Origin: an uncultured Flavobacteriaceae bacterium
GTDB taxonomy: Bacteria > Bacteroidota > Bacteroidia > Flavobacteriales > Flavobacteriaceae
DNA length: 64,000 bases
Reading direction: 5' to 3'
Assembly: GCA_947494565.1 (NCBI GenBank)
Contig: CANLVG010000004.1
Coordinates: forward strand, 248,001 to 312,000
How positions within the stretch are numbered: position 1 is the stretch's first letter; each line of letters opens with the position of its first letter. This document shows positions 531-17,507 of the stretch, piece by piece. Made by a program: the position numbers and the translations under genes. The notes beneath the pieces are model-generated. The model saw nothing but the letters and a program-made list of their open reading frames with translations. It ran no database searches and was not told the DNA's origin.

Positions 531-1523
531 ATGAAATATGTGATACTTCTTATGGCCTTCTTGTTGCTTGTGAACTGCAAGTCAACCGAACGCGAACCGG
601 AATTCCTGTTTCGGACGGCGATTATCGTGAAGGAGGACCATACCTGGTACAAGGCGTTCGATTACTTCAAGCAACTCTTGGAGGAACGCTCCGAAGGCCG
701 AATCAAAGTACTCTTGTACCCCTCGGAACAACTGGCCAAAGAAATCGAGGCCATTCGTTTGATACAGGCCGAAGTAATCGATATCACCACAACGGGCTCG
801 ACCTTGACCAACTGGTTTGAGGTCGCGACTTTTTGTGAGTTGCCTTATTTGATGAAAGACTCTACCGATATGAATCTTTATATCAACGGGAGGGTCGGAA
901 AATTGATGGAGACCGAGATGATTGAAAAGGCCGGAGTACGGGCCCTTTGCCATTTTGAACGCGGCCCCAGACATTTGACTTCAAATCGTCCGATTCGGCA
1001 TCCTGATGATTTAAACGGTCTCATACTGCGGGTGCCCAACGTTCCTTCGTTCGTAACCACATGGAGCGCCCTAGGGGCAAAACCGACACCAATGGCATTT
1101 TCCGAAGTTTTTACATCGCTGCAGCAGGGCACGATACAGGGACAGGAAAATCCGTTTGCCATGATCAACAATGGGGGGTTTGCCGAGGTTCAGAAGTATG
1201 TGAATCTTACCGGACACGTCATAAGTTGGGTCTACGCCGTAATTGGCGAAAAACAGTTCCAGAAGTTACCACCAGATCTTCAGGAAATGGTGGTGCAGGC
1301 CGGGAAAGAAATGCAAAAATATGAGCATGACCTTTTTTTGGAAAACGAAAAAAATATCCAGAAGGTACTAAAGGATAAGGGGATGGAATTAATCGAAGTA
1401 GATACTGAAGCATTTGCTAAAAAGTGTGAAAAGGCCATATATGATAGTCTATCCCCTGAAATGCAGGAAATCTATCACGAATTGAAACGCGAACAAGAAG
1501 CTCATGCGAAAAGGAATAGGTAA
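531..1523 (+). CDS. TRAP transporter substrate-binding lipoprotein (DctP family)
   Basis: This is the solute-binding protein of a tripartite ATP-independent periplasmic transporter. The 330-residue length is usual for DctP. The N-terminus is a lipoprotein signal with lipobox LVNC (Cys16), so the protein should be anchored rather than free in the periplasm. Family features include the FDYFKQLLEERSEGRIKVLLYPSEQL-type opening (only partly quoted here), a hydrophobic segment with PYLM, and RVPNVPSFVTTWSALGAKP, where the arginine normally holds the carboxylate of an organic acid ligand. The next gene starts inside its last 20 bases, so binding protein, small and large permease form one operon. The ligand is unknown: in the family it may be a C4-dicarboxylate, a sugar acid such as a uronate, or sialic acid. 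The sugar genes downstream make a sugar acid plausible, but this is inference. Confidence 0.93.
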   Translation: MKYVILLMAFLLLVNCKSTEREPEFLFRTAIIVKEDHTWYKAFDYFKQLLEERSEGRIKVLLYPSEQLAKEIEAIRLIQAEVIDITTTGSTLTNWFEVATFCELPYLMKDSTDMNLYINGRVGKLMETEMIEKAGVRALCHFERGPRHLTSNRPIRHPDDLNGLILRVPNVPSFVTTWSALGAKPTPMAFSEVFTSLQQGTIQGQENPFAMINNGGFAEVQKYVNLTGHVISWVYAVIGEKQFQKLPPDLQEMVVQAGKEMQKYEHDLFLENEKNIQKVLKDKGMELIEVDTEAFAKKCEKAIYDSLSPEMQEIYHELKREQEAHAKRNR

Positions 1524-1965
1524 ACTACTTAAGATCGGCACTTTGATAAGTACATGGGGCCTGATTGCCATGGTCTTACTCCAGATTATTTGTCGTTTTT
1601 CATGGTTCGATACTCCCTCTTGGACCGAAGAGGCATCGCGAATTCTATTTATCTATGCGATTGCATTCGCCTCGGGTCTTGCTTTGAAATCCAACTACTA
1701 TGTGCATTTAGATGCTTTTTACAATAGGTTCGACCCGAAACTGAAAGTATTTTTAGATAAGTCCATACCCATTGTCATATTTATATTGTTCGCTGTTTTT
1801 GCCTTTTACTCCATTCAATTCATACGATTGGGAATGATTGAAAAATCGCCGAGTATGGGATTTAATATGGGTATTTCGTTCTGCAGCATGTTCATTATCG
1901 GGGCTGCCCTATGTTATTATGCTTGGCATAAAATAGTGCGCGTATTTAAAAGAAAAGACCCATGA
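1504..1965 (+). CDS. TRAP transporter small permease (DctQ family)
   Basis: The four-helix small membrane subunit of the TRAP transporter. At 153 residues it has the usual DctQ length, with hydrophobic segments near residues 11-30, 48-65, 84-108 and 122-142. The DctQ signature is visible as PSWTEEASRILFIYAIAFAS after the first helix, where the WxEE motif is typical. The ATG start overlaps the end of the binding-protein gene by 20 bases, and the stop overlaps the large permease start by four bases (ATGA), which indicates translational coupling. It forms a complex with the large permease and scaffolds it for delivery of ligand by the binding protein. The separate Q and M subunits place this in the three-gene rather than the fused class. 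Confidence 0.92.
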   Translation: MRKGIGKLLKIGTLISTWGLIAMVLLQIICRFSWFDTPSWTEEASRILFIYAIAFASGLALKSNYYVHLDAFYNRFDPKLKVFLDKSIPIVIFILFAVFAFYSIQFIRLGMIEKSPSMGFNMGISFCSMFIIGAALCYYAWHKIVRVFKRKDP

Positions 1966-3236
1966 TTTGGATACTGGTCATTGTATTTGTAGTTGCACTT
2001 GTGCTTCGCTACCCCATCGCTTTTGCCTTGGGTCTGGCCTGTTTGGTCTATTTGATCGGTGCGGATATCCCCTTGATTTTAATGCCCATGAAAATGTACT
2101 CGGGCATTGATGTTTTCGTGTTGCTTAGTATTCCCGGCTTTATCATCGCTGGAAATTTGATGAACCAAGGTGGACTTACGGAAAAGATCATTAGCTTTTG
2201 CAATCATCTGTTAGGTCATATTCGAGGCGGACTCGCATTAGTGAACGTAGGGGCCTCAATGCTTTTTGCGGGAATTTCAGGTACGGCGATTTCCGATACG
2301 GCCAGTATGGGTTCGGTCATGATACCGGCTATGAAAAAGGAAGGATATGATGCTGATTTCTCATGTGCCATAACCGCCGCTTCCTCTACCGTAGGACCTA
2401 TTATTCCCCCTAGTGTGCCCATGATTATTGCAGCGACCCTAAGTGGCCTGTCGGTCGGCAAACTGTTTTTGGCAGGCGCCATTCCGGGCTTGCTTCTGGG
2501 TGTTGGTTTGATGTTGGTCGCATATGTTATCGCGAGAAAGAAAAACTATCCGAAACATCCGAAAAGCACTTTTGGTCAAGTTGCGAGAGGTTTTGTGGAC
2601 ACCTTTTGGTCGCTGTTGATGACCTTTATCATTCTTTTCGGAATTATTGGTGGAATTTTCACACCGACCGAAGCTTCTATCGTTGCCGTATTGTATGCAC
2701 TGGTCGTAGGTCGCTTCGTTTACGGGAAATTGAATTTTAAAAACGTACAGGTGGTCATTCTCGATTCCATGAAGACCTCCGCCTCATTGATGATTTTGGT
2801 AGGATTTGCAAATTTGTTCGGTTATATCTTAATTACGGAACACATCCCGCAGACGATTTCCAGTGAAATATTGGGTTTTAGTTCGAACAAATATGTGGTT
2901 TTGCTTCTAATCAATCTTTTGCTCATCGCCGTCGGAACTTTTATGGAAACCATAGCCGCGCTGCTAATTTTGTTCCCTATTCTCTTGAAAGTGGCCTTGG
3001 CGGTCGATGTAGACCCTATTCATTTCGCCGTAATCGCGGTGTTGAATTTAATCATCGGTTTGACCACGCCACCCGTAGGCGTTTGTCTGTTCGTGGCTTC
3101 CAGCATTGGAAAGGTCTCCATCGGAAAGGTCAGCAAAGCGGGCTTTCCTTTTTTATTGGTCAGTTTGATCGTATTGATTTTGGTAACCCTGATTCCTGAA
3201 ATTTCTTTATGGCTACCTGGCCTATTCAATGATTAA
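1962..3236 (+). CDS. TRAP transporter large permease (DctM family)
   Basis: The ion-coupled transport subunit of the TRAP system, which uses a Na+ gradient to drive uptake. It has 424 residues, close to the family norm of 425-440, with about 11-12 hydrophobic segments. Recognisable DctM elements are SIPGFIIAGNLMNQGGL near residue 50, GISGTAISDTASMGSVMIPAM near 103-123 (shown in part, rich in Gly, Ser and Thr as expected for the ion site), SSTVGPIIPPSVPMIIA around 143, and a C-terminal repeat with GLTTPPVGVCLFVASSI. The Gly-Leu-Thr-Thr-Pro-Pro-Val-Gly motif is highly conserved in the family. It is translationally coupled to the small permease by an ATGA overlap. No odd feature was seen. Confidence 0.95.
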   Translation: MIWILVIVFVVALVLRYPIAFALGLACLVYLIGADIPLILMPMKMYSGIDVFVLLSIPGFIIAGNLMNQGGLTEKIISFCNHLLGHIRGGLALVNVGASMLFAGISGTAISDTASMGSVMIPAMKKEGYDADFSCAITAASSTVGPIIPPSVPMIIAATLSGLSVGKLFLAGAIPGLLLGVGLMLVAYVIARKKNYPKHPKSTFGQVARGFVDTFWSLLMTFIILFGIIGGIFTPTEASIVAVLYALVVGRFVYGKLNFKNVQVVILDSMKTSASLMILVGFANLFGYILITEHIPQTISSEILGFSSNKYVVLLLINLLLIAVGTFMETIAALLILFPILLKVALAVDVDPIHFAVIAVLNLIIGLTTPPVGVCLFVASSIGKVSIGKVSKAGFPFLLVSLIVLILVTLIPEISLWLPGLFND

Positions 3237-4451: not shown

Positions 4452-4470
4452 CTACATCTTAGCTACGTCA
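4452..4470 (+). promoter_or_regulatory. Candidate operator: two direct repeats CTAC[AG]TC with 11-bp period
   Basis: CTACATC at 4452-4458 and CTACGTCA at 4463-4470 are spaced exactly 11 bp, one helical turn apart, 65 bp before the start of the Y_Y_Y regulator gene. The same paired element (ACTACGTCA and ACTACATCA, also 11 bp apart) occurs before susC at 7315-7334. Sharing between the two promoters suggests binding by the regulator encoded at 4536-7295 and autoregulation. The repeat is seen directly and the binding is inference. Confidence 0.45.
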
Positions 4471-4535
4471 ATGAGGTACGAGATAGACACTATTTCCTAA
4501 TAAAATCATATATTCATTTTAGATATAGTCTGTGA

Positions 4536-7295
4536 ATGGGCATACAAAACGCTCCGAGATATATATGGGTTTTCTTCCTCTTACCTATTTTGGTTATGGG
4601 TCAGAATCTGATGCCGCCAATCCAAAATTATCGCCTGTTCGAATACAAAGCGGATAGTAAGAATTGGGGACTGTCGGTAAGTGAAGACGGAGAGCTATTT
4701 GTAGCGAATAATCAAGGTTTATTGCACTTTAACGGTGAAGAATGGACGCTGCACAAACTGCCCCATGAAACTACCATACGTTCCGTATCATATACGGGCG
4801 GAAAAATATTCACAGGCTCCTATGAGGAGTTCGGGTATTGGCAAAAAAGCAACTATGGAGAGCTGGAGTATACGTCTTTGACACACCTGATCAAAAACCA
4901 CGAGTTCACCAATGAGGAATTTTGGCAGATACTGCCATACAAAAATGGACTACTCTTTCGATCTTTTTCTACGATTTATCACTACCAAGATGGAAAAATC
5001 GATGTCATCGATGTGGAAATCGTCGTCTCTAAGATCGCCCTATTTCAGAAGGAAATCGTAGTGGCCGGAGGGGAAGGTGAACTCTATCGTTTAGATAATG
5101 GAAAGTTGACGCCTTTTGTAGATGACACGATACTCGAGGGGAAAACGATCATCGATATGGTGGAGACCGATAAAGGCTTATTGGTCGGCACTAAGCTTGA
5201 TGGCTGTTATATGCTTCAAGATGGATCACTTTCGTCTTGGAATGATGCTATAAATGCTGAGCTAAAGATGCAACAGCTCAATAGGATTTTACTGATTGAC
5301 TCCGGTACTTTGGCCTTTGGTACCATCAAGAACGGTATTTATCTATACGATGTGTCTCGAGGGCTTTGGGATATATTGAATAGGGAAAATGGACTGCAGA
5401 ACAATACGGTGCTCTCGATGCTACAATTCAATGATCAACTTTGGGCCGGACTTGACAATGGCATCGATAGAATTCAATTGAATAATCCTATTACCTACTA
5501 TACCGAAAAATCGGGAACATTGGGCACGGTATATGACATTGCCCGTCATGATGATTTACTTTACTTGGGTAGTAATACCGGCATTTATTATTTTCAGAAG
5601 AATCAACTCCAATTCGTAAACGGAACCCAAGGGCATGTATGGGATCTTGAAGTCATTGAGGGTGACCTTTTCGGAGGACATAATACGGGTACTTTTAGAC
5701 TTGTCGATGGTAAAATAGCAGACTTTTTTGATTATTCAGGAGGCTATCAAATAACCAAAGTGCCGAACCAACAGCAGACCTATTTGCAAGGAACGTATAA
5801 CGGTTTTGTGAAATTTGTCAAGCAAGAATCCGGTGTATGGACTACCCAAAAAATGGCCGGGATGGATCACCCTGTCGAACAGTTTTGTTTTGAGAATGAA
5901 ACTACCGTTTGGGCCGCCCATCCGTATAAGGGTTTTTATCGAATTAAGATCGATCAGGAGTATGAGCAAATAGTGGAATTTCGAGAGTATACTACCGATT
6001 CTATTCCCGACAATTATAATATCGAGCTTTTTAATATCAAAAATCAAATCGTATTTAGAAATGAGGGGCACTGGTACAAGTATGATCCTATTTTAGACAG
6101 AATCATTGGTTTTGAAGAGTTCGAGGCGTATACCAACAAAAAACTCCTCTATCATGATGAAAGACATTTCTGGTTTTTGGACAGGGAATCTAAGGAGATG
6201 GCGTTTACCGATTTCAAGGGAAAAGATTTGATTATTGAAGAACCCCAATTGACCCGAAGACAGGTTCCAGAGGCCGAGAACATTATTAAACACAGTGATT
6301 CGGCCTACTATTATACATTGGGTGATGGACTCGCCAAAATTGATCTTGCAGCATTGCAATTTCATGTGGAACGTTTGAATTTGTCAACACCGAAGCTTGG
6401 TTCCTTCATTGCCGGTGGTGAAAAGAAAAATATTGACAATACCCCAATAAATCTGACATTCCAAGAGGCTAAAAAAATCGAGATAAAGGTTGCCACGCCA
6501 GAGGAGGTCGACCCGAAATACCATTATGAACTAAAATCCAACGAAACGCAATCGGGTTTCAGCGATCATGGAACCTTGAACTTTCAGAATCTGGCCTATG
6601 GGGAGTACTTGCTCGCTATTGCTACGGTCGGTATCGATAACCAAAAATCCGAACCTCTCGAGGTTGCTTTTACAATTGCGCCTCCTTGGTACCTTTCGAA
6701 AATGAGCATACTTGCGTATCTCTTGGCAATTGTTGCACTGGGTTACCTCATACGGGTGTATCATAGACAAAAGTTAGATAGAAAGCAGAGAGAGTTAAAA
6801 GATGAGCTGGTACGCGAGCAAGAAGATAAATTGGCCATACTCGAAAAGGAAAAATTGGCGAAGGAAATCAAACTCAAACAAAATGAATTGACCATCAGTA
6901 CCATGAACGTTGCCGAGAAAAATGAGTTGCTTTTAGAATTGAAGAATATGCTCGTAATGGGCAAAGATCAGTTTAGCGATAAGCGACGTTACCGTGCGTT
7001 CATGAAAAAATTGGATAATTCAATTCACGGAGAGGGTGATTGGAAGCGATTTGAATACAACTTCAACGAACTTCACGAGGATTTCTTCGAAAAACTCCTG
7101 AAACGATACCCAAAACTAACACCCAAGGACCTCAAGCTATGCGCCTATCTTAAAATGAATCTATCCACAAAGGAAATTGCACCGTTAATGGCTATCTCGG
7201 TAAGAGGGGTAGAGATCCATAGATATCGATTGAGAAAAAAGCTGCAAATCGAGAGTTCTGAGAATATCTCCAACTTCTTGATAACCTACAAATAG
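4536..7295 (+). CDS. Periplasm-sensing Y_Y_Y propeller regulator with cytoplasmic LuxR-type HTH
   Basis: A 919-residue membrane transcription regulator of the two-component-propeller type without a kinase. Order of parts: signal peptide (to about residue 22, VMGQ), a propeller of short repeats spanning about 25-640 (for example GLSVSEDGELFVANNQGLLH, LWAGLDNGIDRIQ), a Y_Y_Y domain at about 650-715, one membrane helix at about 722-741 (SILAYLLAIVALGYLIRVY), a charged coiled coil at about 745-800 (KLDRKQRELKDELVREQEDK), and a C-terminal helix-turn-helix at about 858-901 (TPKDLKLCAYLKMNLSTKEI) of the GerE/LuxR-like kind. Family members sense oligosaccharide in the periplasm and switch on an adjacent susCD locus. 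It directly precedes susC in the same direction, which supports control of the downstream locus. The ligand is unknown. Confidence 0.88.
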   Translation: MGIQNAPRYIWVFFLLPILVMGQNLMPPIQNYRLFEYKADSKNWGLSVSEDGELFVANNQGLLHFNGEEWTLHKLPHETTIRSVSYTGGKIFTGSYEEFGYWQKSNYGELEYTSLTHLIKNHEFTNEEFWQILPYKNGLLFRSFSTIYHYQDGKIDVIDVEIVVSKIALFQKEIVVAGGEGELYRLDNGKLTPFVDDTILEGKTIIDMVETDKGLLVGTKLDGCYMLQDGSLSSWNDAINAELKMQQLNRILLIDSGTLAFGTIKNGIYLYDVSRGLWDILNRENGLQNNTVLSMLQFNDQLWAGLDNGIDRIQLNNPITYYTEKSGTLGTVYDIARHDDLLYLGSNTGIYYFQKNQLQFVNGTQGHVWDLEVIEGDLFGGHNTGTFRLVDGKIADFFDYSGGYQITKVPNQQQTYLQGTYNGFVKFVKQESGVWTTQKMAGMDHPVEQFCFENETTVWAAHPYKGFYRIKIDQEYEQIVEFREYTTDSIPDNYNIELFNIKNQIVFRNEGHWYKYDPILDRIIGFEEFEAYTNKKLLYHDERHFWFLDRESKEMAFTDFKGKDLIIEEPQLTRRQVPEAENIIKHSDSAYYYTLGDGLAKIDLAALQFHVERLNLSTPKLGSFIAGGEKKNIDNTPINLTFQEAKKIEIKVATPEEVDPKYHYELKSNETQSGFSDHGTLNFQNLAYGEYLLAIATVGIDNQKSEPLEVAFTIAPPWYLSKMSILAYLLAIVALGYLIRVYHRQKLDRKQRELKDELVREQEDKLAILEKEKLAKEIKLKQNELTISTMNVAEKNELLLELKNMLVMGKDQFSDKRRYRAFMKKLDNSIHGEGDWKRFEYNFNELHEDFFEKLLKRYPKLTPKDLKLCAYLKMNLSTKEIAPLMAISVRGVEIHRYRLRKKLQIESSENISNFLITYK

Positions 7296-7314
7296 GGGTT
7301 TTCAACATTTCAAG

Positions 7315-7334
7315 ACTACGTCATTACTACATCA
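7315..7334 (+). promoter_or_regulatory. Candidate operator upstream of susC: ACTAC[GA]TCA direct repeat, 11-bp period
   Basis: ACTACGTCA at 7315-7323 is followed by ACTACATCA at 7326-7334. Eight of nine bases agree and the period is 11 bp, so both units face the same side of the helix. It lies in the 208-bp leader between the regulator gene and susC, about 170 bp before the susC start. The related pair at 4452-4470 upstream of the regulator makes a shared operator likely. A weak -7-like TAATTTAG is at 7467-7474, with no clear -33 element. Confidence 0.5.
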
Positions 7335-7503
7335 GAATGTTAAAAGTCAGCGGCTCTTCAGCTTTTGTACTACTGCAAATCCTGTGAATTCAGGCAATTG
7401 CAATGCCTTTCCCCTTGATGTATCCGTAATGTATTGCTTCATCAATAGGTCAGCAGGGCTTAATGCTAATTTAGCAACAGAACAATCAAACTATTGAAGA
7501 ATT

Positions 7504-10500
7504 ATGAAAATGAAAAACATCTTTTTATTAATATCGTTTTTCTCGGTTCAGATTTTTGCCATTGCGCAAAGTACGATCACCGTCGCGGGTACCGTATCCG
7601 ATGCTGGTGGGCAACCCCTTCCCGGGGCGTCCGTCGTAATCAAAGGGACTACTACAGGAATCCAGACCGACTTTGATGGAAACTATTCCTTGAGCGATGC
7701 ACCTTCTGATGGCATACTCGTCGTCAGCTATCTTGGTTTTACCGCTGTCGAGATTCCGATAAACGGTCAAACGACCCTAGATGTGACTTTACAGGAAGAT
7801 GCGGAAGCGCTTGATGAGGTTGTCGTCATCGGTTATGGTGAAATGAAGTCGAAAGATCTGACCTCCGCCATTACGACTTTAAAGTCGGAAGAACTGTCCG
7901 CCACTCCAACGGGTCAAGCCGTCGCCGCGTTGCAGGGGAAGGTCGCCGGACTTCAGATCGTGAACGCTGGTGCGCCCGGTCAATCTCCAACGATAAGGGT
8001 GAGGGGTATTGGCTCGTATGACGACGAGGATGGAGATTCTGCTCCCCTCTTTGTTGTTGACGGTATGTTTTTTGACAATATCGATTTCTTGAATACGGCC
8101 GACATTGCTTCGGTGTCCGTATTGAAAGATGCCTCGGCAGCAGCCATCTATGGAGTTCGCGCAGCAAATGGGGTAGTGCTGATCGAGACCAAATCCGGAG
8201 CGTTGAACCAGAAAGCGCAGATAACATATGACGGATATTCTGGTTATCAGGTTGCCCAAAATGTACTCAAATTGGCGAACGCCGAACAGTTTGTGACCCT
8301 TGCCCTTGAATCAGGATCCGAACCCGATGCGCAGTTCATTGAGAACGCCATGCAGCGCTACGGTCGCAGTAGGATCAACCCAAATGTGCCGAATGTCAAT
8401 ACGGACTGGTACGACGAAATACTGCGTGTGGCGCCGATTCAAAACCATAGCTTGAATGTGACAGGAGGTAGCGAAAGCGCCACCTATGCCATCGGTGCCA
8501 ACTATTTTGAGCAGCAAGGACTACTCAAAATGAAGAATGAGTACCAACGCTTTAATTTGAGAGCGAGGGTCGACTTCAGAGTCAATGCCTGGCTCAAAAT
8601 CGGGGGTAATGCCATATTGAGCAACGCCCAGCGTTTCGACGCTGAAAATTCCGCTTGGCGAAGAGCTTATTTCGCGGTGCCGATCCTTCCTGTTCGCGAT
8701 GAAAGTTTGACCGATGACCCGGCAGTTTTTCCAACCAACTATGCAAATGCTCAAGATTTGGGATATCGCGGAGGGCAGAACCCCTTTCCGATTATGGACA
8801 ATAGCGAGTTGCGGTCGAAAATCCGGAATATTTTGGCCAATTTTTATGCGGAGATCGACCTCATTCCCCAGAAGTTGAAATTTAAGACCGCGTATAACCA
8901 CAATTTTGAGACGACCAATCGCCGTGAGGTGCGCCTTCCCTATTTTATTGGGAATAATTTTCAACGTGAAAATGCGGAGCTCTTAAAACGAACCGATGTT
9001 GTTTCCAATCAGATATGGGACAACACCCTGACTTATACCGAAACCTTCGGGAACCATAATCTGACCCTATTAGGAGGTACTTCCTTTCGTGACGAGGCCT
9101 TTGATAGATTGGAAGCCAAAGGGCTCAATTTTCCCTTATCGGGAGAAGAGGCCTATTTTCTAGATCAGGCCCAAACCATTGTAGAGGAAGATGTTCTCGA
9201 CGATGGGCGGCGTGAATTTGGCTTCTCTTATTTTGGAAGACTCTCTTACAACTATGCCAACCGCTATTTACTCTACGGCACCTTTCGGGCTGACGGCACC
9301 AATAAGTATCAAGAGAAATGGGGTTATTTCCCGACCGTTGGTCTTGGTTGGGTGGTGTCGGAAGAAAACTTTATGCAGAACAATGGCATTTTCGATTTCC
9401 TGAAACTTCGAGCCAGTTGGGGAGAATTAGGGAACGATAAAATCGATTCCAGCTCAGGTTCCATTACATCTGAAGTAGTAACCACGGCTTTGGGCGATAC
9501 CATGTTCAGCGGTGTAAATACTGATAGTGACTTTACTGCCTTGCGCTGGGAAGTTACCGAAGAAGTAAATGGAGGGCTTTCGGCACGATTGCTCAACAAT
9601 AACCTGTCACTGGAGGCTGACTATTATGTTAGGGAAACCAATAATGCAGTGATTCCGGTATTGCGGGCCTTGATTCCCGGATCCACACGCCAGAACATCG
9701 GGAAGATTCGAAATTCCGGATTTGAACTGGCGCTCAGTTGGAATAAAAGGGTGTCCGATGATTTTAGCTATTCGCTGGGGGCCAACTTTTCAACCTTGGA
9801 AAACGAGGTACTCGATTTAGGAGGCCAGCCCCATTTAGATGCCGGTAGCGCCGAATTTCGCCAACGTTCGATTGTAGGGGAGCCCATTTTCGCCTTCTAC
9901 GGAAGGGAAATTGCCGGGGTATATCAAAATGATGCCGAGATCCAGGCCGACCCCGTGGCCGTGGCTAATGATTTGGCGCCGGGCGACCTTAAGTTTAGGG
10001 ATATCAATGGCGATGGCGATATTACCGATGATGATAGAACCGTACTAGGGTCTTTTTTACCCTCCTATAATTATGGTTTTAATCTTGGTTTCAATTACAA
10101 GGGATGGGATTTTAACGCTACAGGACTAGGCCAAGGGGGCAATAAGATCTTGAATAGAAAAAGGGGAGAGGTCATCTTTACCAATGATACGAACTGGGAC
10201 CGTGATTTTGCCCTGAATCGATGGCATGGTGAAGGCACCTCCAATGCATACCCCTCCTCTGCCGGTATCCGTAAAGGATGGAACCAACGTCTCAGTGATT
10301 TCTTTGTCGAAGATGGTGACTTTTTTAGAATACAGAACATCACCTTGGGCTATACGATCAATAAGAAAGGAGATATGAAGGGCATTCCACAGACGCGCAT
10401 CTATATCACTGCCGAAAAGCCCTTGACACTGTTCAAGTACAACGGATTCAACCCTGAAGTAGCCAATGGTGTTGATAACGAAACCTATCCGATACCTGCG

Positions 10501-10533
10501 GTATATACGATGGGTGTGAATATTAAAATTTAA
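7504..10533 (+). CDS. SusC/RagA-type TonB-dependent outer membrane glycan transporter
   Basis: The outer membrane barrel that imports glycan fragments together with the SusD lipoprotein encoded next. It has 1009 residues, normal for SusC. Order: signal peptide (cleavage after IFAIAQ, residue 22), a carboxypeptidase-like domain at about 24-105 (TVSDAGGQPLPGASVVIKGT), a TonB-box-like stretch DEVVVIGYGE near 104, the plug domain at about 115-230 with the SusC signature SVLKDASAAAIYGVRAANGV, then the barrel, ending in an aromatic/hydrophobic strand (YTMGVNIKI). The start at 7504 gives MKMKN, and the ATG at 7510 would serve as well. It lies 208 bp after the regulator and 11 bp before susD. TonB energy could come from the TonB protein at 58478-59200 or from others outside the window. 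Confidence 0.97.
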   Translation: MKMKNIFLLISFFSVQIFAIAQSTITVAGTVSDAGGQPLPGASVVIKGTTTGIQTDFDGNYSLSDAPSDGILVVSYLGFTAVEIPINGQTTLDVTLQEDAEALDEVVVIGYGEMKSKDLTSAITTLKSEELSATPTGQAVAALQGKVAGLQIVNAGAPGQSPTIRVRGIGSYDDEDGDSAPLFVVDGMFFDNIDFLNTADIASVSVLKDASAAAIYGVRAANGVVLIETKSGALNQKAQITYDGYSGYQVAQNVLKLANAEQFVTLALESGSEPDAQFIENAMQRYGRSRINPNVPNVNTDWYDEILRVAPIQNHSLNVTGGSESATYAIGANYFEQQGLLKMKNEYQRFNLRARVDFRVNAWLKIGGNAILSNAQRFDAENSAWRRAYFAVPILPVRDESLTDDPAVFPTNYANAQDLGYRGGQNPFPIMDNSELRSKIRNILANFYAEIDLIPQKLKFKTAYNHNFETTNRREVRLPYFIGNNFQRENAELLKRTDVVSNQIWDNTLTYTETFGNHNLTLLGGTSFRDEAFDRLEAKGLNFPLSGEEAYFLDQAQTIVEEDVLDDGRREFGFSYFGRLSYNYANRYLLYGTFRADGTNKYQEKWGYFPTVGLGWVVSEENFMQNNGIFDFLKLRASWGELGNDKIDSSSGSITSEVVTTALGDTMFSGVNTDSDFTALRWEVTEEVNGGLSARLLNNNLSLEADYYVRETNNAVIPVLRALIPGSTRQNIGKIRNSGFELALSWNKRVSDDFSYSLGANFSTLENEVLDLGGQPHLDAGSAEFRQRSIVGEPIFAFYGREIAGVYQNDAEIQADPVAVANDLAPGDLKFRDINGDGDITDDDRTVLGSFLPSYNYGFNLGFNYKGWDFNATGLGQGGNKILNRKRGEVIFTNDTNWDRDFALNRWHGEGTSNAYPSSAGIRKGWNQRLSDFFVEDGDFFRIQNITLGYTINKKGDMKGIPQTRIYITAEKPLTLFKYNGFNPEVANGVDNETYPIPAVYTMGVNIKI

Positions 10534-10544
10534 AAAAAAGAAAA

Positions 10545-12083
10545 ATGCAACTGCTAAAGAACACGATTATTCCAAAGGTGATGGCCTTGTCCGTAGTGAT
10601 GACAATAGCATGCACCGACAAACTTGATGAACCACAATTGAACAACAACTTTGCAGGGGGTACTGATTTTACCGATACATCTGGCATGCAATTATCCGTT
10701 GTAGGGGTTTATGAGGCCTTTCATTCCCGTGGATGGGAACAACCGCTACTGATTTCGGTGCGTGGGGATGATGTAAATTCAGGAGGTCTTGGGGATCAGC
10801 CAGACTTCATGGAAACGGATCTTTTCAACTACAACAAAGACTATTGGATGTACAATTCCCTTTGGGAAAACATCTATGTCGATATCATCTCGGCCCATAC
10901 CGCTATGGAACAGATCGCAAGGTTTCAAGAATTTGCCGATGATGCGGGTATAGGGCAGGGAGCGCAATATATCGCAGAGATAAAGGTACTTCGCGCGGCC
11001 ATGCTGTTCCAAATTGCACAGGTTTGGGGCGATGTGTTCATACCTGAAAGTTCGGACACCAATGAACTGTTGGAGGTAGACGTGCTACCGACGAGGAGCG
11101 AAGTGATGCAACACATTTCCGACCAGATGGATACGGTCATAGGGCTATTGCCCGATATGCGGCCTAACGAACGAACAGACCTGCCCGGGGGTGTTACAAA
11201 ATATACGGCACTGGCCATCAAGGCCCTGGCCAATCAAGAGTTGAAGAATTATCAGGTGGTAGCCGACGCGGCGGGCCAAATCGTAAATTCGGGTAAGTTC
11301 AGTCTGTTTCCCGACTTTTATGAATTGTTCAAAACACCGGGAAAATTGAGCGATGAGAATATTCTCGATTTGCAATATTCCGATTTCGGACAGGGGGAAG
11401 GCGATCGTTCCGCACATCTCTATGCACCCTATGGTCCACAAGGTTGGACACCCGCAGTCGAAGGGGCCGCTAGTGGTTGGGGGTTTTATGAGCCCAGTTT
11501 GAAATTCATAAAATTCATGTTGGATCGTGGCGAGACGGTACGTTTAGAAACCAGTGTACTCTTTACCGACCGAGGGATTGCGGAACTTCAGACCGACCCG
11601 GCTTACGCGACCTTACCGGCTTTCGTTTCAAACACCACCCGCGACGGTGATGTCATCAACGACTATGCACGAGCCCTATTTGCCAGTGGAAAGCATTACC
11701 TACCGTCGAATCAACTGATTCCGGGCAGAACCGCCTATGGTAGTAACAAGAACTACAACCTTCTACGATACGGGGAAATTCTATTAATGTACGCAGAAGC
11801 CTTGTTGCAGGGTGCCTCAGCTTCAGGAATGACCGCTGACGAGGCCGTCAATTTGGTGCGGGCAAGAGCGGGAATGCCAGCCTTGTCAGGAGTTACCTTG
11901 AATCAAGTAATCGATGAGAAGTTTGCCGAACTGGGTATGGAATGGGGCAAACGGTACTATGACATGGTACGTTTAGGTCGGTTAGATGAACTCAGTTATG
12001 ATGGAAGAACCTTTTCCGAAGCTGATAGCTTCTTGCCCTATCCCCAAAGTCAAGTAGACCAATTTCCGATTTTGGAGAATTAA
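10545..12083 (+). CDS. SusD/RagB-type surface glycan-binding lipoprotein
   Basis: The lid subunit of the SusCD complex, a 512-residue lipoprotein with lipobox TIAC (Cys23) in its signal peptide. SusD features are the N-terminal ELDEP-like segment after the cysteine (DKLDEPQLNNNF), TPR-like helices with EIKVLRAAMLFQIAQVWGDV (the typical RAxxYFxLxxxxGDVP equivalent), and a C-terminal half with YNLLRYGEILLMYAEALLQ, which matches the signature RYAEvLLmyAEA. It ends in the usual xYPIPxxE-like form, here LPYPQSQVDQFPILEN. It starts 11 bp after susC and is followed after 22 bp by the LamG lipoprotein gene, so one transcript is expected. Substrate specificity cannot be read from SusD sequence. Confidence 0.96.
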   Translation: MQLLKNTIIPKVMALSVVMTIACTDKLDEPQLNNNFAGGTDFTDTSGMQLSVVGVYEAFHSRGWEQPLLISVRGDDVNSGGLGDQPDFMETDLFNYNKDYWMYNSLWENIYVDIISAHTAMEQIARFQEFADDAGIGQGAQYIAEIKVLRAAMLFQIAQVWGDVFIPESSDTNELLEVDVLPTRSEVMQHISDQMDTVIGLLPDMRPNERTDLPGGVTKYTALAIKALANQELKNYQVVADAAGQIVNSGKFSLFPDFYELFKTPGKLSDENILDLQYSDFGQGEGDRSAHLYAPYGPQGWTPAVEGAASGWGFYEPSLKFIKFMLDRGETVRLETSVLFTDRGIAELQTDPAYATLPAFVSNTTRDGDVINDYARALFASGKHYLPSNQLIPGRTAYGSNKNYNLLRYGEILLMYAEALLQGASASGMTADEAVNLVRARAGMPALSGVTLNQVIDEKFAELGMEWGKRYYDMVRLGRLDELSYDGRTFSEADSFLPYPQSQVDQFPILEN

Positions 12084-12105
12084 GAAAACCACTAAATAGC
12101 AACAG

Positions 12106-14487
12106 ATGAAAAACATAAAATACATACTCACCAGTTTGGTCGCGGTTGCCCTTTTCTATGGATGTGAGCAAGGAATCGACCCTATAACCGAGGTAGCGCC
12201 CCCAGCGGATGCGACCGCTCCGCAGATTGTCGTAAATAAACCCACCGAAGGCCTGGTAGTCAAGGTTTTCGAGGATATTACCTCCTTGGATATCGATTTG
12301 GAAGTTACCGATGACGTTGAAATCGCTAGCATTATGGTCCTTCTTGATGGGGCTCAAATTGCTACGTTTAATGATTTTAAGGATTACCGTAGGGCCTTGC
12401 AGGAATTCAGTTATGATCGACTGGCCAATGGAGAGCATACCCTGACAGTGACTGCCACTGATATCGAAGGTAAGACGACCACGGTTGAAGTCAACCTCTC
12501 CAAAGAACCACCATATGTCTCGATGTTCGAAGGAGAATCTTTTTTTATGCCTTTCGATGGGGATTATCGCGATCAAATCGGATTTGAACAGGCCACTGAG
12601 ATTGGTACACCGGGATTCAACAGTCCTGGCTTCGCTGGCCTGAGTTCATATAAAGGCGCCACCGACACTCACCTCACATTTCCGGCAGAAGGATTGTTGA
12701 GTGACGAATTCAGTGCTGCGTTTTGGTACAAGGTCAATGCCGACCCGGGCCGGGCCGGTATTCTGGTCGTTGGCGATAATGCCGATGATCGCTTTCAAGG
12801 GTTTCGTTTGTTCCGGGAAGGAAACGAAGAGGAACAACGCATCAAACTCAACGTGGGCGTAGGAACGGGCGAAAGTTGGAACGACGGGGGCGTTATCGAT
12901 GTGGCAGCAGGAGAATGGGTACACGTCGCCTTCACCATTTCACAGGATAAAAGCGTAATTTACTTCAACGGAAACCAGGTCAACATGGCCGATATGGCAG
13001 GCCCCATTGATTGGTCAGGTTGTACCGGGTTTACCATAGGCTCTGGGGGTGAGACCTTCAGTTATTGGAATCATCTATCCGATAGTAGCGATATGGACGA
13101 ACTGCGTTTTTTCGATCGGGCACTCACCCAGACTGAAATTCAGATTATGTTGAGTTCGTTTAATCCGTATACCCCACAATTTGATGGCGAATCGTTTTAT
13201 ATGCCATTTGAAGGAGGCTATGTGAACCTTGTGGGAAGCACCGCCGCAACCACTGTGGGATCACCTGAAATTACCGATCAGGCCTTTGACGGGTCAGGGG
13301 CTTATTTGGGCGCTACGGACGCTTATATAACTCATCCTGCCGCTGGTTTTTTAAGCAATCAATTCAGTGCTACGATGTGGTATAAGGTGAATCCCGATCC
13401 TGATAGAGCCGGTATTCTGGTCGTTGGCGATGATGCCGATGATCGTTTTCAGGGGTTTCGTCTCTTTCGGGAAGGGAATGCCGACGAACAGCGTATCAAA
13501 CTTAATGTCGGAACAGGTAGCGGCGAGAGTTGGAACGATGGTGATGTCATTACCGTCGCTGACGGCGAATGGGTTCATATTGCTATGACCATCTCCGACA
13601 CCAAAAACAAAATCTATTTGAACGGGGTGGAGGTACGCGCATCCGATATGGCTGCACCTGTTGATTGGACGGGTTGCGAGCTGTTCACCATCGGGTCAGG
13701 TGGCCCCACCTTTGATTATTGGAACCACTTATCAGATTTTAGCAGTTTGGATGAACTCCGGTTTTTTAACAAAGAACTGTCGGCCGAAGAAGTGGCGGCC
13801 GTAGCAGGCGGTGAATTCACACCAAAGAATTTTGGCTCCACCTTATACATGCCTTTCGATGGCTCGAACACCGAAGTAAATAAAAATATCGAACCGACCG
13901 TTGTTGGAATCCCTGGATTTGCGGGGGACAGCCAGGTGGGCTCGGACGCCTATACCGGCGCTGCCGATTCGTACCTCACCTTCCCCATCGATGGTCTGTT
14001 CAGCAATCAGTTTAGTGGGGCATTTTGGTACAAGGTCAATGCTGACCCCGACCGTGCAGGGATTCTTGTGGTGTCTCCGCCTATGAACGGCACCGATAAT
14101 GATCTTTCTGCCGGCTTTCGACTAATACGGGAAGGAAATGCCGATGAGCAGCGCATCAAATTGCACTTGGGTACCGATGGGGGTAATGTATGGAACGATG
14201 GTGAGGTCATTGATGTTTCCGCGGGTGAATGGATCCATATTGCCTTTACCGTTTCCGATACCGCTACACAGATTTACTTTAATGGGGAACCTGTCGCCAA
14301 TAGGGGTGATATGAGTGGGAAACTCATCAGTTGGGCCAATTGTGAGATACTATCTATAGGTTCTGGAGCACCCAATTTTATTGGGTGGAACCACTTATCG
14401 GATTTGAGTTATATTGATGACCTCTATCTTTTCGACCGGACATTGACGCAAGAAGAAATTCAAGAGTTGCGTGATTCGGGATTATAA
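12106..14487 (+). CDS. Lipoprotein with Ig-like domain and three tandem LamG domains
   Basis: A 793-residue lipoprotein (lipobox FYGC, Cys20) in the position where many utilisation loci encode surface glycan-binding proteins (SusE/F-like). After a linker there is an Ig-like or cadherin-like domain at about 40-135 (DDVEIASIMVLLDGAQIATF), then three concanavalin A-like/LamG domains at about 138-350, 355-570 and 573-793. The three repeats share FWYKVNADPxRAGILVV, DRFQGFRLFREGNxxEQRIK, ESWNDG, GEWVHxAFTIS, IYFNG and WNHLSDxSxxDELRFFD, so they arose by internal duplication. Repeats one and two are the closest. LamG domains bind carbohydrate or calcium, and several copies suggest avidity for a long polymer. 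It lies between susD and the hydrolase gene with short gaps. No enzyme motif was seen. Confidence 0.88.
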   Translation: MKNIKYILTSLVAVALFYGCEQGIDPITEVAPPADATAPQIVVNKPTEGLVVKVFEDITSLDIDLEVTDDVEIASIMVLLDGAQIATFNDFKDYRRALQEFSYDRLANGEHTLTVTATDIEGKTTTVEVNLSKEPPYVSMFEGESFFMPFDGDYRDQIGFEQATEIGTPGFNSPGFAGLSSYKGATDTHLTFPAEGLLSDEFSAAFWYKVNADPGRAGILVVGDNADDRFQGFRLFREGNEEEQRIKLNVGVGTGESWNDGGVIDVAAGEWVHVAFTISQDKSVIYFNGNQVNMADMAGPIDWSGCTGFTIGSGGETFSYWNHLSDSSDMDELRFFDRALTQTEIQIMLSSFNPYTPQFDGESFYMPFEGGYVNLVGSTAATTVGSPEITDQAFDGSGAYLGATDAYITHPAAGFLSNQFSATMWYKVNPDPDRAGILVVGDDADDRFQGFRLFREGNADEQRIKLNVGTGSGESWNDGDVITVADGEWVHIAMTISDTKNKIYLNGVEVRASDMAAPVDWTGCELFTIGSGGPTFDYWNHLSDFSSLDELRFFNKELSAEEVAAVAGGEFTPKNFGSTLYMPFDGSNTEVNKNIEPTVVGIPGFAGDSQVGSDAYTGAADSYLTFPIDGLFSNQFSGAFWYKVNADPDRAGILVVSPPMNGTDNDLSAGFRLIREGNADEQRIKLHLGTDGGNVWNDGEVIDVSAGEWIHIAFTVSDTATQIYFNGEPVANRGDMSGKLISWANCEILSIGSGAPNFIGWNHLSDLSYIDDLYLFDRTLTQEEIQELRDSGL

Positions 14488-14512
14488 ATACTTTTTTTCA
14501 AGTTGTTTTTTT

Positions 14513-15871
14513 ATGAAGTTAGTTTTGATTCAGGTTTTAGTCGTCATTGCATTCCATTTGATTGGATGCAATGGCTCTAAAGCCACCGAGATTGAAAAAG
14601 AGAATGGGAATGGTGATGTTCCTCAACTGACCGACACAGAACTGTTGGATCGTGTACAGCGTCAGACGTTCGAATATTTTTGGGATGGGGCCGAACCAAT
14701 TTCGGGCTTGGCCCGAGAGCGTATTCATTTAGACAATATATATCCCGCCCATGACAAGGACATCATCACCATCGGAGGATCAGGGTTCGGACTCATGGCT
14801 ATTTTGGTAGGTGTTGAACGGAATTTTATCACACGTGAACAGGCTTTGGAGCGACTGGAACGGGCCGTTGAGTTTTTGGAGAATGCCGACCGTTTTCACG
14901 GGGCATGGCCGCACTGGCTAATGCCTTCGGGTAGTGTGACTCCTTTCAGTGCCAAAGATAACGGAGGTGATCTGGTAGAAACTGCCTTTTTGGTTCAAGG
15001 TCTTTTGACCGTAAAGGAATATTTTAAAGAGGGTAGCGAGAGGGAAAAACAACTGGCTGATAAAATTCAACGGCTCTGGGAAGCCGTAGAATGGGATTGG
15101 TATACCAAAAATGGCGAAAACGTCTTGTATTGGCACTGGTCGCCCAATTATGCTTGGGATATGAACTTTCCCGTCGGAGGATATAATGAGGCATTGATTA
15201 TGTATGTTTTGGCAGCTGCCTCGCCTACACATCCCGTAACGAAGGCGGTGTACGAAAAAGGATGGGCTCGAAACGGAGGGATTACCAATGACACCGAATT
15301 TTACGGTTTACGAACGGAACTCGATCATTACGAACACGACAATTCCCCCGTAGGCCCGCTTTTCTGGGCGCACTATTCCTATTTGGGACTTAATCCCAAG
15401 GGATTATCCGATCAATATGCGGATTATTGGAAATTGAATACTGCCCATGCGCTAATACACTACCGCTATTGTGTCGACAATCCGAATAATTTTGAGGGAT
15501 ATGGGGAAGATTGTTGGGGACTTACCTCGAGCTATTCCGTCAAAGGGTATTCGGCACATCGGCCCGATGAGGATTTAGGAGTCATCTCGCCAACTGCAGC
15601 ACTATCATCCATGCCATATACGCCAGATCAGAGCATGCGTTTTTTAAGATATATGTATGAGGAACAAGATTCCCTTATTGGGAAATATGGCCCATATGAT
15701 GCTTTTAGCCTAGAAGAAAATTGGTATTTACCCCGATACCTCGCCATTGACCAAGGCCCGATTCCCGTGATGATCGAAAACCATAGAAGCGGTCTTTTCT
15801 GGAACCTATTTATGAAAAACGAAGAAGTGCGGGCGGGGTTGGACAAACTTGGCTTCCAATATGCAGATTGA
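14513..15871 (+). CDS. Glycoside hydrolase lipoprotein of the PF10091 'glucoamylase' family (GH144-type)
   Basis: A 452-residue hydrolase in the family often named glucoamylase (PF10091). The characterised relatives are GH144 endo-beta-1,2-glucanases, but family members vary, so the bond is not certain. Visible family features are the opening helix LLDRVQRQTFEYFWDGAEPISGL, quoted in part, the glycine-rich IGGSGFGLMAILVGVER, the stretch FHGAWPHWLMPSGSV, and the (alpha/alpha)6-barrel elements DLVETAFLVQGLL, NYAWDMNFPVGGYNEALI and ENHRSGLFWNLFM. The preferred start is the ATG at 14513, which gives a clean lipoprotein signal with lipobox LIGC (Cys19). The GTG at 14471 would overlap the upstream gene and add a poor leader. 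The end overlaps the sulfatase start, so the two are coupled. Confidence 0.86.
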   Translation: MKLVLIQVLVVIAFHLIGCNGSKATEIEKENGNGDVPQLTDTELLDRVQRQTFEYFWDGAEPISGLARERIHLDNIYPAHDKDIITIGGSGFGLMAILVGVERNFITREQALERLERAVEFLENADRFHGAWPHWLMPSGSVTPFSAKDNGGDLVETAFLVQGLLTVKEYFKEGSEREKQLADKIQRLWEAVEWDWYTKNGENVLYWHWSPNYAWDMNFPVGGYNEALIMYVLAAASPTHPVTKAVYEKGWARNGGITNDTEFYGLRTELDHYEHDNSPVGPLFWAHYSYLGLNPKGLSDQYADYWKLNTAHALIHYRYCVDNPNNFEGYGEDCWGLTSSYSVKGYSAHRPDEDLGVISPTAALSSMPYTPDQSMRFLRYMYEEQDSLIGKYGPYDAFSLEENWYLPRYLAIDQGPIPVMIENHRSGLFWNLFMKNEEVRAGLDKLGFQYAD

Positions 15872-17507
15872 TAAGATAGCCTACTTTTTAGTACTGATTT
15901 TTTTATGTTCGAACTGTAAAGAATCGATAAGACCTCTTCCTAAAGATGAAATAGCAGGAGTAAGGCCGAACATCATCTTTATCATGGCAGATGATCATGC
16001 CGTACAGGCCATAAGTGCCTATGGACATCCGTTGAGCCAGTTAGCACCTACTCCGAATATCGATCGTATCGCAAAAAATGGTGCGCTATTTACCAAAAGT
16101 TTCTGCACCAATTCGATCTGCGGTCCGAGTCGGGCCGTGATACTAACGGGAAAACACAGCCATATCAACGGGTTCCGACAAAATGGGGACCATTTTGATG
16201 GTAACCAACCCACCTTACCCAAATTATTGGGTAAGGAAGGATACCGCACCGCAGTTATCGGAAAATGGCATTTGCATGGAGAACCCCAGGGTTTTGATCA
16301 TTGGAATATATTGAATGATCAAGGAAATTACTACAATCCTGAGTTCATCCATGGAAAGGACACAACCGTGGTAGAAGGATATGCTACCGATTTGATTACC
16401 GATTTTTCGCTCGACTGGATCAAGAAGAATTCGAAAAACGAAAGTCCATTTTTCTTGATGGTACATCATAAGGCTCCACACCGCAATTGGATGCCTGCCT
16501 TACGCCATATGAACAAGTATGACTCGATCAGGTTTCCCCTACCGGAGAGCTATTTTGATGCACATTTAGGGAAGCGTGCTGCACAGCAACAACAGCAAAC
16601 AATTTATAGGGATATGTATGAAGGGCATGACCTCAAGATGACCGAATCTTACCGAAAGCCCAAATTAGCGCATAATCCTTGGACCAACGATTTTGACCGA
16701 ATGACCCCTGAACAGAGGCGAAAATGGGATGCGGCTTACGCCGTAAAAAATGATAGCTTTCATGCGGCCAAATTGTCGGGGAAGGCATTGGCCGAATGGA
16801 AAGGCCAACGCTATTTACAAGAATATTTGAGTACTGTTGCTGCGGTGGACGAAGGGGTAGGGCGTCTCTTGGATTATCTAGAAGAGTCGGGTTTAGAGGA
16901 GAATACTTTGGTGGTCTACACCTCGGATCAAGGTTTTTATCTGGGAGAAAATGGTTTTTTTGACAAACGGTTTATGTATGAGGAATCGTTTCGAATGCCT
17001 TTATTGATGCAGCTCCCCGGTAGGGTTCAAAAAGGATCCAAAATTGATGCATTGGTACAAAATTTAGATTTCGCCCCTACTTTTTTAGACGTAGCGAACG
17101 CTTCCGAAGCTTCGGCTATGATGCAGGGCGATTCATTCCTTGACCTGCTGGATAAGGGGGGTGGCACTATGAACAATAGAAATGTAATTTATTATCACTA
17201 CTACGACTATCCCGCATTTCACATGGTAAAAAAACATTATGGTATTCGAACAGATCGCTACAAATTAATGCACTTCTATGACGATATCGATACTTGGGAA
17301 TTCTATGACCTCAAGACCGATCCAAATGAGGAACACAATGCTATCGAAGACAAGCAATATGCCACGGTCATTCGGAAAATGCACCGGACCTTAGATTCCG
17401 TACAACAGCATTATAAAGTCACCGAAGTCGAATTTAAAAAGGCTTCGCCAAAGCAAATCGAAAAAGCGCATCGTGATTTTAAGCGTTTAAGGGGGCAATC
17501 CGATTAA
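15861..17507 (+). CDS. Formylglycine-dependent sulfatase, S1 family, lipoprotein
   Basis: A type I sulfatase that removes sulfate esters from glycans in the periplasm or at the surface. The metal-binding start is NIIFIMADDHAV. The maturation motif CGPSR (Cys87, followed by AVILTG) fits C-x-P-S-R-x-x-x-[LI]-T-G, so the cysteine is converted to formylglycine by an enzyme encoded elsewhere. Other conserved parts are GKWHLHG, HHKAPH, the late calcium site YTSDQGFYLGENGFFDKR and the segment FRMPLLMQLPG, which together resemble N-acetylglucosamine-6-sulfatase/heparan-type S1 subfamilies. This subfamily guess is tentative. The start is ATG 15861 with lipobox CSNC (Cys19). The TTG at 15849 only adds three residues. 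It overlaps the hydrolase gene by 11 bp and closes the locus. Confidence 0.92.
   Translation: MQIDKIAYFLVLIFLCSNCKESIRPLPKDEIAGVRPNIIFIMADDHAVQAISAYGHPLSQLAPTPNIDRIAKNGALFTKSFCTNSICGPSRAVILTGKHSHINGFRQNGDHFDGNQPTLPKLLGKEGYRTAVIGKWHLHGEPQGFDHWNILNDQGNYYNPEFIHGKDTTVVEGYATDLITDFSLDWIKKNSKNESPFFLMVHHKAPHRNWMPALRHMNKYDSIRFPLPESYFDAHLGKRAAQQQQQTIYRDMYEGHDLKMTESYRKPKLAHNPWTNDFDRMTPEQRRKWDAAYAVKNDSFHAAKLSGKALAEWKGQRYLQEYLSTVAAVDEGVGRLLDYLEESGLEENTLVVYTSDQGFYLGENGFFDKRFMYEESFRMPLLMQLPGRVQKGSKIDALVQNLDFAPTFLDVANASEASAMMQGDSFLDLLDKGGGTMNNRNVIYYHYYDYPAFHMVKKHYGIRTDRYKLMHFYDDIDTWEFYDLKTDPNEEHNAIEDKQYATVIRKMHRTLDSVQQHYKVTEVEFKKASPKQIEKAHRDFKRLRGQSD

Follow-up and report, generated by a model that had tools for sequence, protein, structure and literature searches.

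The locus raises the question of which protein uses the short direct repeats that lie in front of a regulator gene and in front of susC, and in what arrangement. The window analyzed here (the whole stretch of DNA, 64,000 nucleotides) carries the regulator gene at 4536–7295 (forward strand), followed by susC (TonB-dependent receptor; 7504–10533, forward strand), the predicted target. The rest of the predicted operon (10545–17507, forward strand) encodes susD, a LamG protein, a GH144-like endo-β-1,2-glucanase, and an SGSH-type sulfatase.

A membrane-anchored regulator beside a probable glucan PUL

The regulator comprises 919 amino acids and, by sequence and model, is anchored in the membrane. 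Its AlphaFold model (mean pLDDT 82.9) consists of two β-propellers, an Ig-like domain, a long transmembrane/coiled-coil helix (residues 722–808), and a C-terminal HTH. A Foldseek search with the model returned the periplasmic sensors of hybrid two-component systems (PDB codes 4a2l, TM score 0.74 by target length, 3v9f, and 3ott), and thus the regulator possesses the HTCS-type sensor fold. A profile search led to the same group of structures, whereas searching the PDB with the single full-length sequence returned nothing. The HTH belongs to the GerE/LuxR type, as residues 861–908 match GerE (PF00196) with 24.9 bits at a Pfam cut-off of 23.5; the region also aligns with the DNA-binding domain of EsrB. 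GerE is the only domain found in the 919 residues; there is no histidine kinase, receiver, or AraC-type HTH in the chain, and the protein is therefore not an HTCS. The first-pass annotation had described a Y_Y_Y/LuxR-HTH regulator. The LuxR part of this description stands, whereas a Pfam search at E ≤ 0.001 returned no Y_Y_Y, although the model resembles the sensors of hybrid two-component systems. With a modeled periplasmic sensor, one membrane helix, a cytoplasmic HTH, and susC/susD next to its gene, the protein has the layout of a SusR-like PUL regulator. The C-terminal region also matches the NCBIfam model BT3442_fam weakly (31.8 bits, model cut-off 940).

The GH144-like protein matches the solved endo-β-1,2-glucanase 5gzh with E = 1e-178, and orthologous loci usually encode a second GH144-like protein, a GH3, and an esterase besides. 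From this enzyme content, the substrate is likely to be β-1,2-glucan or a glucan related to it. The PUL of the window (7504–17507) looks like a reduced version, with one GH144-like gene and no GH3 where most orthologous loci carry a GH3 and two GH144-like genes. Upstream of the PUL, at 531–3236, lies what reads as a three-gene TRAP-type transporter, an unusual neighbor of SusCD. Paralogues of the regulator, in the loci examined, accompany laminarin-type PULs with GH16, GH64, and GH3. One of them is encoded in the same genome (G000:C10:166926-169709), in a GH16-containing locus with its own ACCCCAACATTACCTATACA pair and a reversed partner.

Three repeat pairs and their conservation

Direct reading of the window confirms the repeats of the first-pass annotation in sequence, coordinates, and spacing. 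Pair A (7315–7334, forward strand) is ACTACGTCA-TT-ACTACATCA, its half-sites starting at 7315 and 7326, and is the putative distal operator of susC. Pair C (4452–4470, forward strand), 84 bp before the regulator start, is the imperfect repeat CTACATCT-TAG-CTACGTCA, with CTACATC at 4452 and CTACGTCA at 4463, and is a probable autoregulatory site. The offset is 11 bp in both. Scanning the window for CTACRTCA-N3-CTACRTCA gave 0 mismatches at 7316–7334, 1 at 4452–4470, and 3 for the next best match. The two matches at ≤1 mismatch compare with 0 in 100 copies of the window generated by a first-order Markov model, and the repeats thus lie far above chance expectation. They are also the sole matches at this threshold in the 5.39-Mb genome, where exact CTACRTCNNNNCTACRTC is found nowhere besides pairs A and C; the many copies at unrelated genes that would have spoken against a specific role are thus absent. 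No further regulon members appeared in the genome at ≤1 mismatch, and with up to 3 mismatches allowed the pattern is at background (73 matches versus 89 for a reversed control pattern).

The earlier statement that these are the only such pairs noticed in the window holds at ≤1 mismatch, but a third, reversed copy with 3 mismatches had been overlooked. This pair B (7416–7434, reverse strand; TGATGTATCCGTAATGTAT on the forward strand) is conserved in orthologues and is a putative promoter-proximal operator. In an alignment of 73 loci, the reversed pair TGATGTAnTTTTTATGTA follows ∼100 bp 3′ of pair A in nearly every locus and is nearly invariant, and the half-sites of pair A are conserved as strongly. 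A TAATTTRG box begins 33 bp past pair B in most loci. The box likely represents the −7 element that the Bacteroidota sigma factor recognizes, an element with the consensus TAnnTTTG. In the window, the corresponding TAATTTAG (7467–7474, forward strand) is the candidate −7 box for susC. Pair B would then span roughly −47 to −64, with pair A ∼100 bp farther upstream.

Other short elements accompany the pairs. Directly after pair A lies a TGTTAAA box (7338–7344, forward strand), conserved in most of the 73 aligned loci. The box, which has a T-rich tail, is unlike the half-site and may point to bent DNA or to the binding of another protein. CTACTGCA (7370–7377, forward strand) is a possible degenerate third half-site, which roughly half the near orthologues retain. 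In some loci (L130, L134, L139, L140, L005, and L120–L127), AACGTTTTCG/CGTTTGCG-like palindromes, possibly LacI-type sites, lie near pair B or replace it.

The comparison with relatives takes in well over a hundred loci. About 84 of 397 Flavobacteriaceae genomes encode an orthologue whose score lies above those of the common paralogue family. Pair A exceeds the best shuffled score in 78 of 81 sampled orthologues, usually 20–180 bp past the regulator stop, with a matrix trained on the same orthologues that it scored; the independent test is therefore the motif-blind one described below. A second, partly overlapping set comprises 80 named orthologues (from Flagellimonas, Allomuricauda, Maribacter, Zobellia, Cellulophaga, Arenibacter, and others). 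Pair A lies 3′ of the regulator in 68 of them at ≤1 mismatch and in 74 at ≤2 mismatches, and the proposed scan of related genomes for paired repeats at orthologous susC loci thus finds them conserved. Exact pairs occur in 29 of the 397 genomes and lie just 3′ of an orthologous regulator in 27; the exceptions are a tandem array, found in G327, and a single site, found in G019. The former (G327:C6:5264-5304) consists of three overlapping exact pairs in a tandem CTACATCA array with no orthologue adjoining. Pair A or B is degenerate in a few orthologues (L083, L131–L141, L201, L266, and L268).

Most relatives outside the Flavobacteriaceae have neither an apparent susC after the regulator nor the pair; sites are recognizable in family f55 and at locus L304. 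In three loci of f55, another Bacteroidia family (L273–L275), CACTACATCATTACCTCTCA is accompanied by a reversed TGATGTA...ATGTAG about 152–166 bp downstream. The 13 genomes of the same genus that were searched (G001–G013) yielded no close orthologue of the regulator, which is present in other genera, a patchy distribution that possibly reflects horizontal transfer.

A pair upstream of the regulator, as in the window, is found in 13 of the 80 named orthologues, whereas the null yields none at ≤2 mismatches. These upstream pairs are mostly reversed and located at about −134, most being followed by a TTTTGTATATT box; pair C of the window lies at −84 and is followed by TATATTCATTTTAG. Some of the 13 have a divergent neighbor gene, which they perhaps serve. 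Because the pair is present here and in only 13 of 80 orthologues, the suggested autoregulation is plausible for this locus and not a rule of the family. Universal autoregulation was rejected, as most orthologues have no upstream pair.

Helical spacing and a proposed residue-to-base code

For the motif-blind test, we took the best 9-bp self-match of each regulator–susC gap at lags 7 to 33, with dinucleotide shuffles as the null. At lag 11, 76% of the 80 gaps contain a match of at least 8 of 9 identical bases, compared with 5% of the shuffles, and every other lag stays at ≤15%. Lag 11 again ranks first in the paralogue family of the laminarin PULs (41% versus 7%), with extra peaks at 21 and 31–32. 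The half-sites of these paralogues read ACC[AT][AC][AT]ACA, and a third half-site lies 21 bp upstream.

The distance between pairs A and B is likewise periodic. Over both families it falls into classes of 101–106, 114–117, 125–128, 134–140, and 145–149 bp. Among 67 loci of the β-1,2-glucan family, the offset is 101–106 bp in 63 and 115–117 bp in 4, with none between, and the longer spacer represents one event on the tree. The laminarin family occupies 114–116, 125–128, 134–140, and 145–149 bp, and on the tree it moved from one spacing class to another at least 14 times, with class boundaries that were set after the gaps were seen. Its circular concentration at a period of 10.9 bp is R = 0.69, compared with a maximum of 0.65 in 2000 random draws, a result that holds with uniform clades collapsed. 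The two families share the same helical phase within about 1 bp. Such a phased ladder would be expected if the two pairs had to share one face of the DNA. The first-pass annotation envisaged a single tandem repeat for a dimeric regulator, a view that is therefore incomplete, the conserved unit being two facing pairs at a helically phased distance.

The recognition helix of the regulator comprises residues 889–902 (7200–7241, forward strand), with Gly-891, Ile-894 (codon at 7215–7217), and His-895 as putative specificity residues. In the alignment with EsrB, and in line with what is known of NarL, residue 894 falls at a base-contacting position. Across the loci, the sites vary with the helix: RGVE[IVL]HRYR helices pair with CTACATCA sites, RG[VL]ETHRYR helices with CTACGTCA sites, and [RK]SVE[VI]KRYR helices with ACCACAACA sites. 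Residues and bases were counted at the second half-site of 152 loci. Base 6 is G in 29 of 33 loci with Thr-894 and in 1 of 119 with Ile-, Val-, or Leu-894, which go with A or T. Base 7 is A in all 42 loci with Lys-895 and T in 94 of 97 with His-895, and base 3 is C in 44 of 46 loci with Ser-891 and T in 98 of 106 with Gly-891. These counts suggest a code in which residue 894 would read base 6, residue 895 base 7, and residue 891 base 3. Two loci with paralogue-like scores (L151 and L168) nevertheless combine an RGVELH helix with sites of the CTACATCA type (TACATCA).

Thr-894 arose about three times (in the CTACGTCA clade, in a laminarin clade, and at L304 of another family), each time accompanied by G, and because there are only about three origins the link falls short of sign-test significance on independent events. 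Downstream of the L304 regulator, an 11-bp TACGT/TACGTCA repeat was read by eye. A search of the 397 genomes with DNA alone, for the G-type laminarin site ACCNCGACANNACCNCGACA, gave five matches, all of them just 3′ of regulators with a VET[KR]RYR helix. Together with L170 the five form one clade, and one of them is the L170 locus itself.

Proposed mechanism, alternatives, and known systems

Taken together, the phased ladder, the link between residues and bases, and the outcome of the DNA-only search make it very probable that the sites are bound by the regulator itself, as an activator of susC that would need both pairs on one DNA face. The reading of the repeats upstream of susC as an operator of the adjacent regulator is strongly supported by conservation, genome-wide uniqueness, and the co-variation of recognition helix and bases. 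In the mechanism we propose, a LuxR/GerE-type HTH would read the 9-bp half-site ACTAC[A/G]TCA, and two HTHs would sit head-to-tail at a distance of one helical turn (11 bp). The full susC promoter would contain two facing pairs on the same helix face, B beside the TAnnTTTG-like −7 box and A ∼100 bp upstream. Once the periplasmic sensor takes up its oligosaccharide, probably derived from β-1,2-glucan, the membrane-held regulator would occupy A and B, bridging or aligning them, and thereby activate susC. The sites, their conservation and phasing, and the co-variation of residues with bases are seen in the sequences themselves, and from this comparison binding, the dimeric or tetrameric state, bridging as opposed to same-face docking, activation, and the ligand are inferred. 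As a whole, the explanation that pairs A, B, and C are operators of the regulator and that the phased pairs A and B activate susC is, in our judgment, highly likely. With somewhat better than even confidence, we extend it to a family-wide design, in which opposed pairs of one-turn direct repeats on the same face, whole turns apart, would be bridged or aligned by a membrane-held LuxR-type regulator whose residue-to-base code predicts the site.

The most serious alternative, which we consider less likely than not, is that the regulator binds A and B independently, and that the phasing merely turns both sites toward the membrane with no bridging or loop. A protein that is membrane-anchored by sequence and model would reach only one face of the DNA and could produce the same ladder; the near-constant spacing in the β-1,2-glucan family (101–106 bp in 63 of 67 loci), however, suggests a constraint tighter than facing alone. 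It is unlikely that the pairs repress susC. The position of a site is in itself no proof of activation, but pair B ends ∼33 bp ahead of the −7 box, where activators are placed, and SusR is an activator of its targets (PMC3878776).

Another DNA-binding protein, for example of the LacI or Crp type, might use the sites with the Y_Y_Y/LuxR regulator as a bystander, and the additional conserved boxes (TGTTAAA and, in some loci, the AACGTTTTCG-like palindromes) are places where other proteins may bind. This is very improbable for the pairs themselves, since their sequence follows the recognition helix of this regulator, L151 and L168 included, since the DNA-first search with ACCNCGACANNACCNCGACA led to matching regulators, and since the sites adjoin only this gene. 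Just as little credit is due to an RNA hairpin of the mutually complementary A and B, acting as an attenuator or 5′-UTR element. In a predicted fold, TGATGTA of B does pair with TACATCA of A, but z-scores of −1.4 to +0.7 in five loci show no significant fold, and we rejected this reading. Moreover, because the conserved −7 box is 3′ of B, neither A nor B should belong to the susC mRNA, and their spacing is helical rather than free. Recognition of both pairs by the regulator itself remains the preferred explanation.

SusR-like regulators control glycan use in Bacteroidota, and in the literature searched their sites have so far been predicted only, and in Bacteroides only. A site grammar that can be searched as a pattern would link regulators to target operons across marine Flavobacteriaceae, and it raises the question of how a membrane-fixed transcription factor handles two phased DNA sites. 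For the SusR-like class, a search of largely open-access literature brought up no description of pairs 11 bp apart, of opposed pairs, or of a phased distance between pairs.

Head-to-tail binding to 11-bp direct repeats is known from PhoB/OmpR boxes, which are recognized by a winged-helix fold and not by a LuxR-type one. GerE-type HTHs on direct repeats were shown or proposed for MilO (PMC11784345) and phosphorylated Bacillus subtilis DegU (PMC9263151). The repeats bound by MilO comprise 11-bp units separated by 2-bp spacers (PMC11784345). Both proteins are soluble, and neither is known to use an opposed, phased second pair. With HTCS (BT4663, BT3049, and BT4673), the regulator shares the periplasmic sensor fold of two propellers and an Ig-like domain. 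It differs from them in having a LuxR-type HTH in place of histidine kinase, receiver, and AraC-type HTH, and its repeats are 11 bp apart, whereas HTCS operators are direct repeats averaging 21 bp apart (PMC3878776).

The closest likeness is to the SusR-like regulons of Bacteroides, where a membrane-bound glycan sensor with a C-terminal HTH is likewise encoded beside susC/susD, direct repeats were predicted by footprinting, and motif similarity follows regulator similarity (PMC3878776). Ravcheev et al. (2013) predicted that these motifs are direct repeats at a distance of 67 or 77 bp, and described the SusR sites as not yet characterized (PMC3878776). The Bacteroides sites are two in the same direction, with centers 67 or 77 bp apart, a pattern that differs from the 11-bp pairs found here, which are inverted with respect to each other and separated by 101–149 bp on a helical ladder. 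Beyond the work on Bacteroides, the present analysis adds a link between regulator residues and operator bases, in Flavobacteriaceae.
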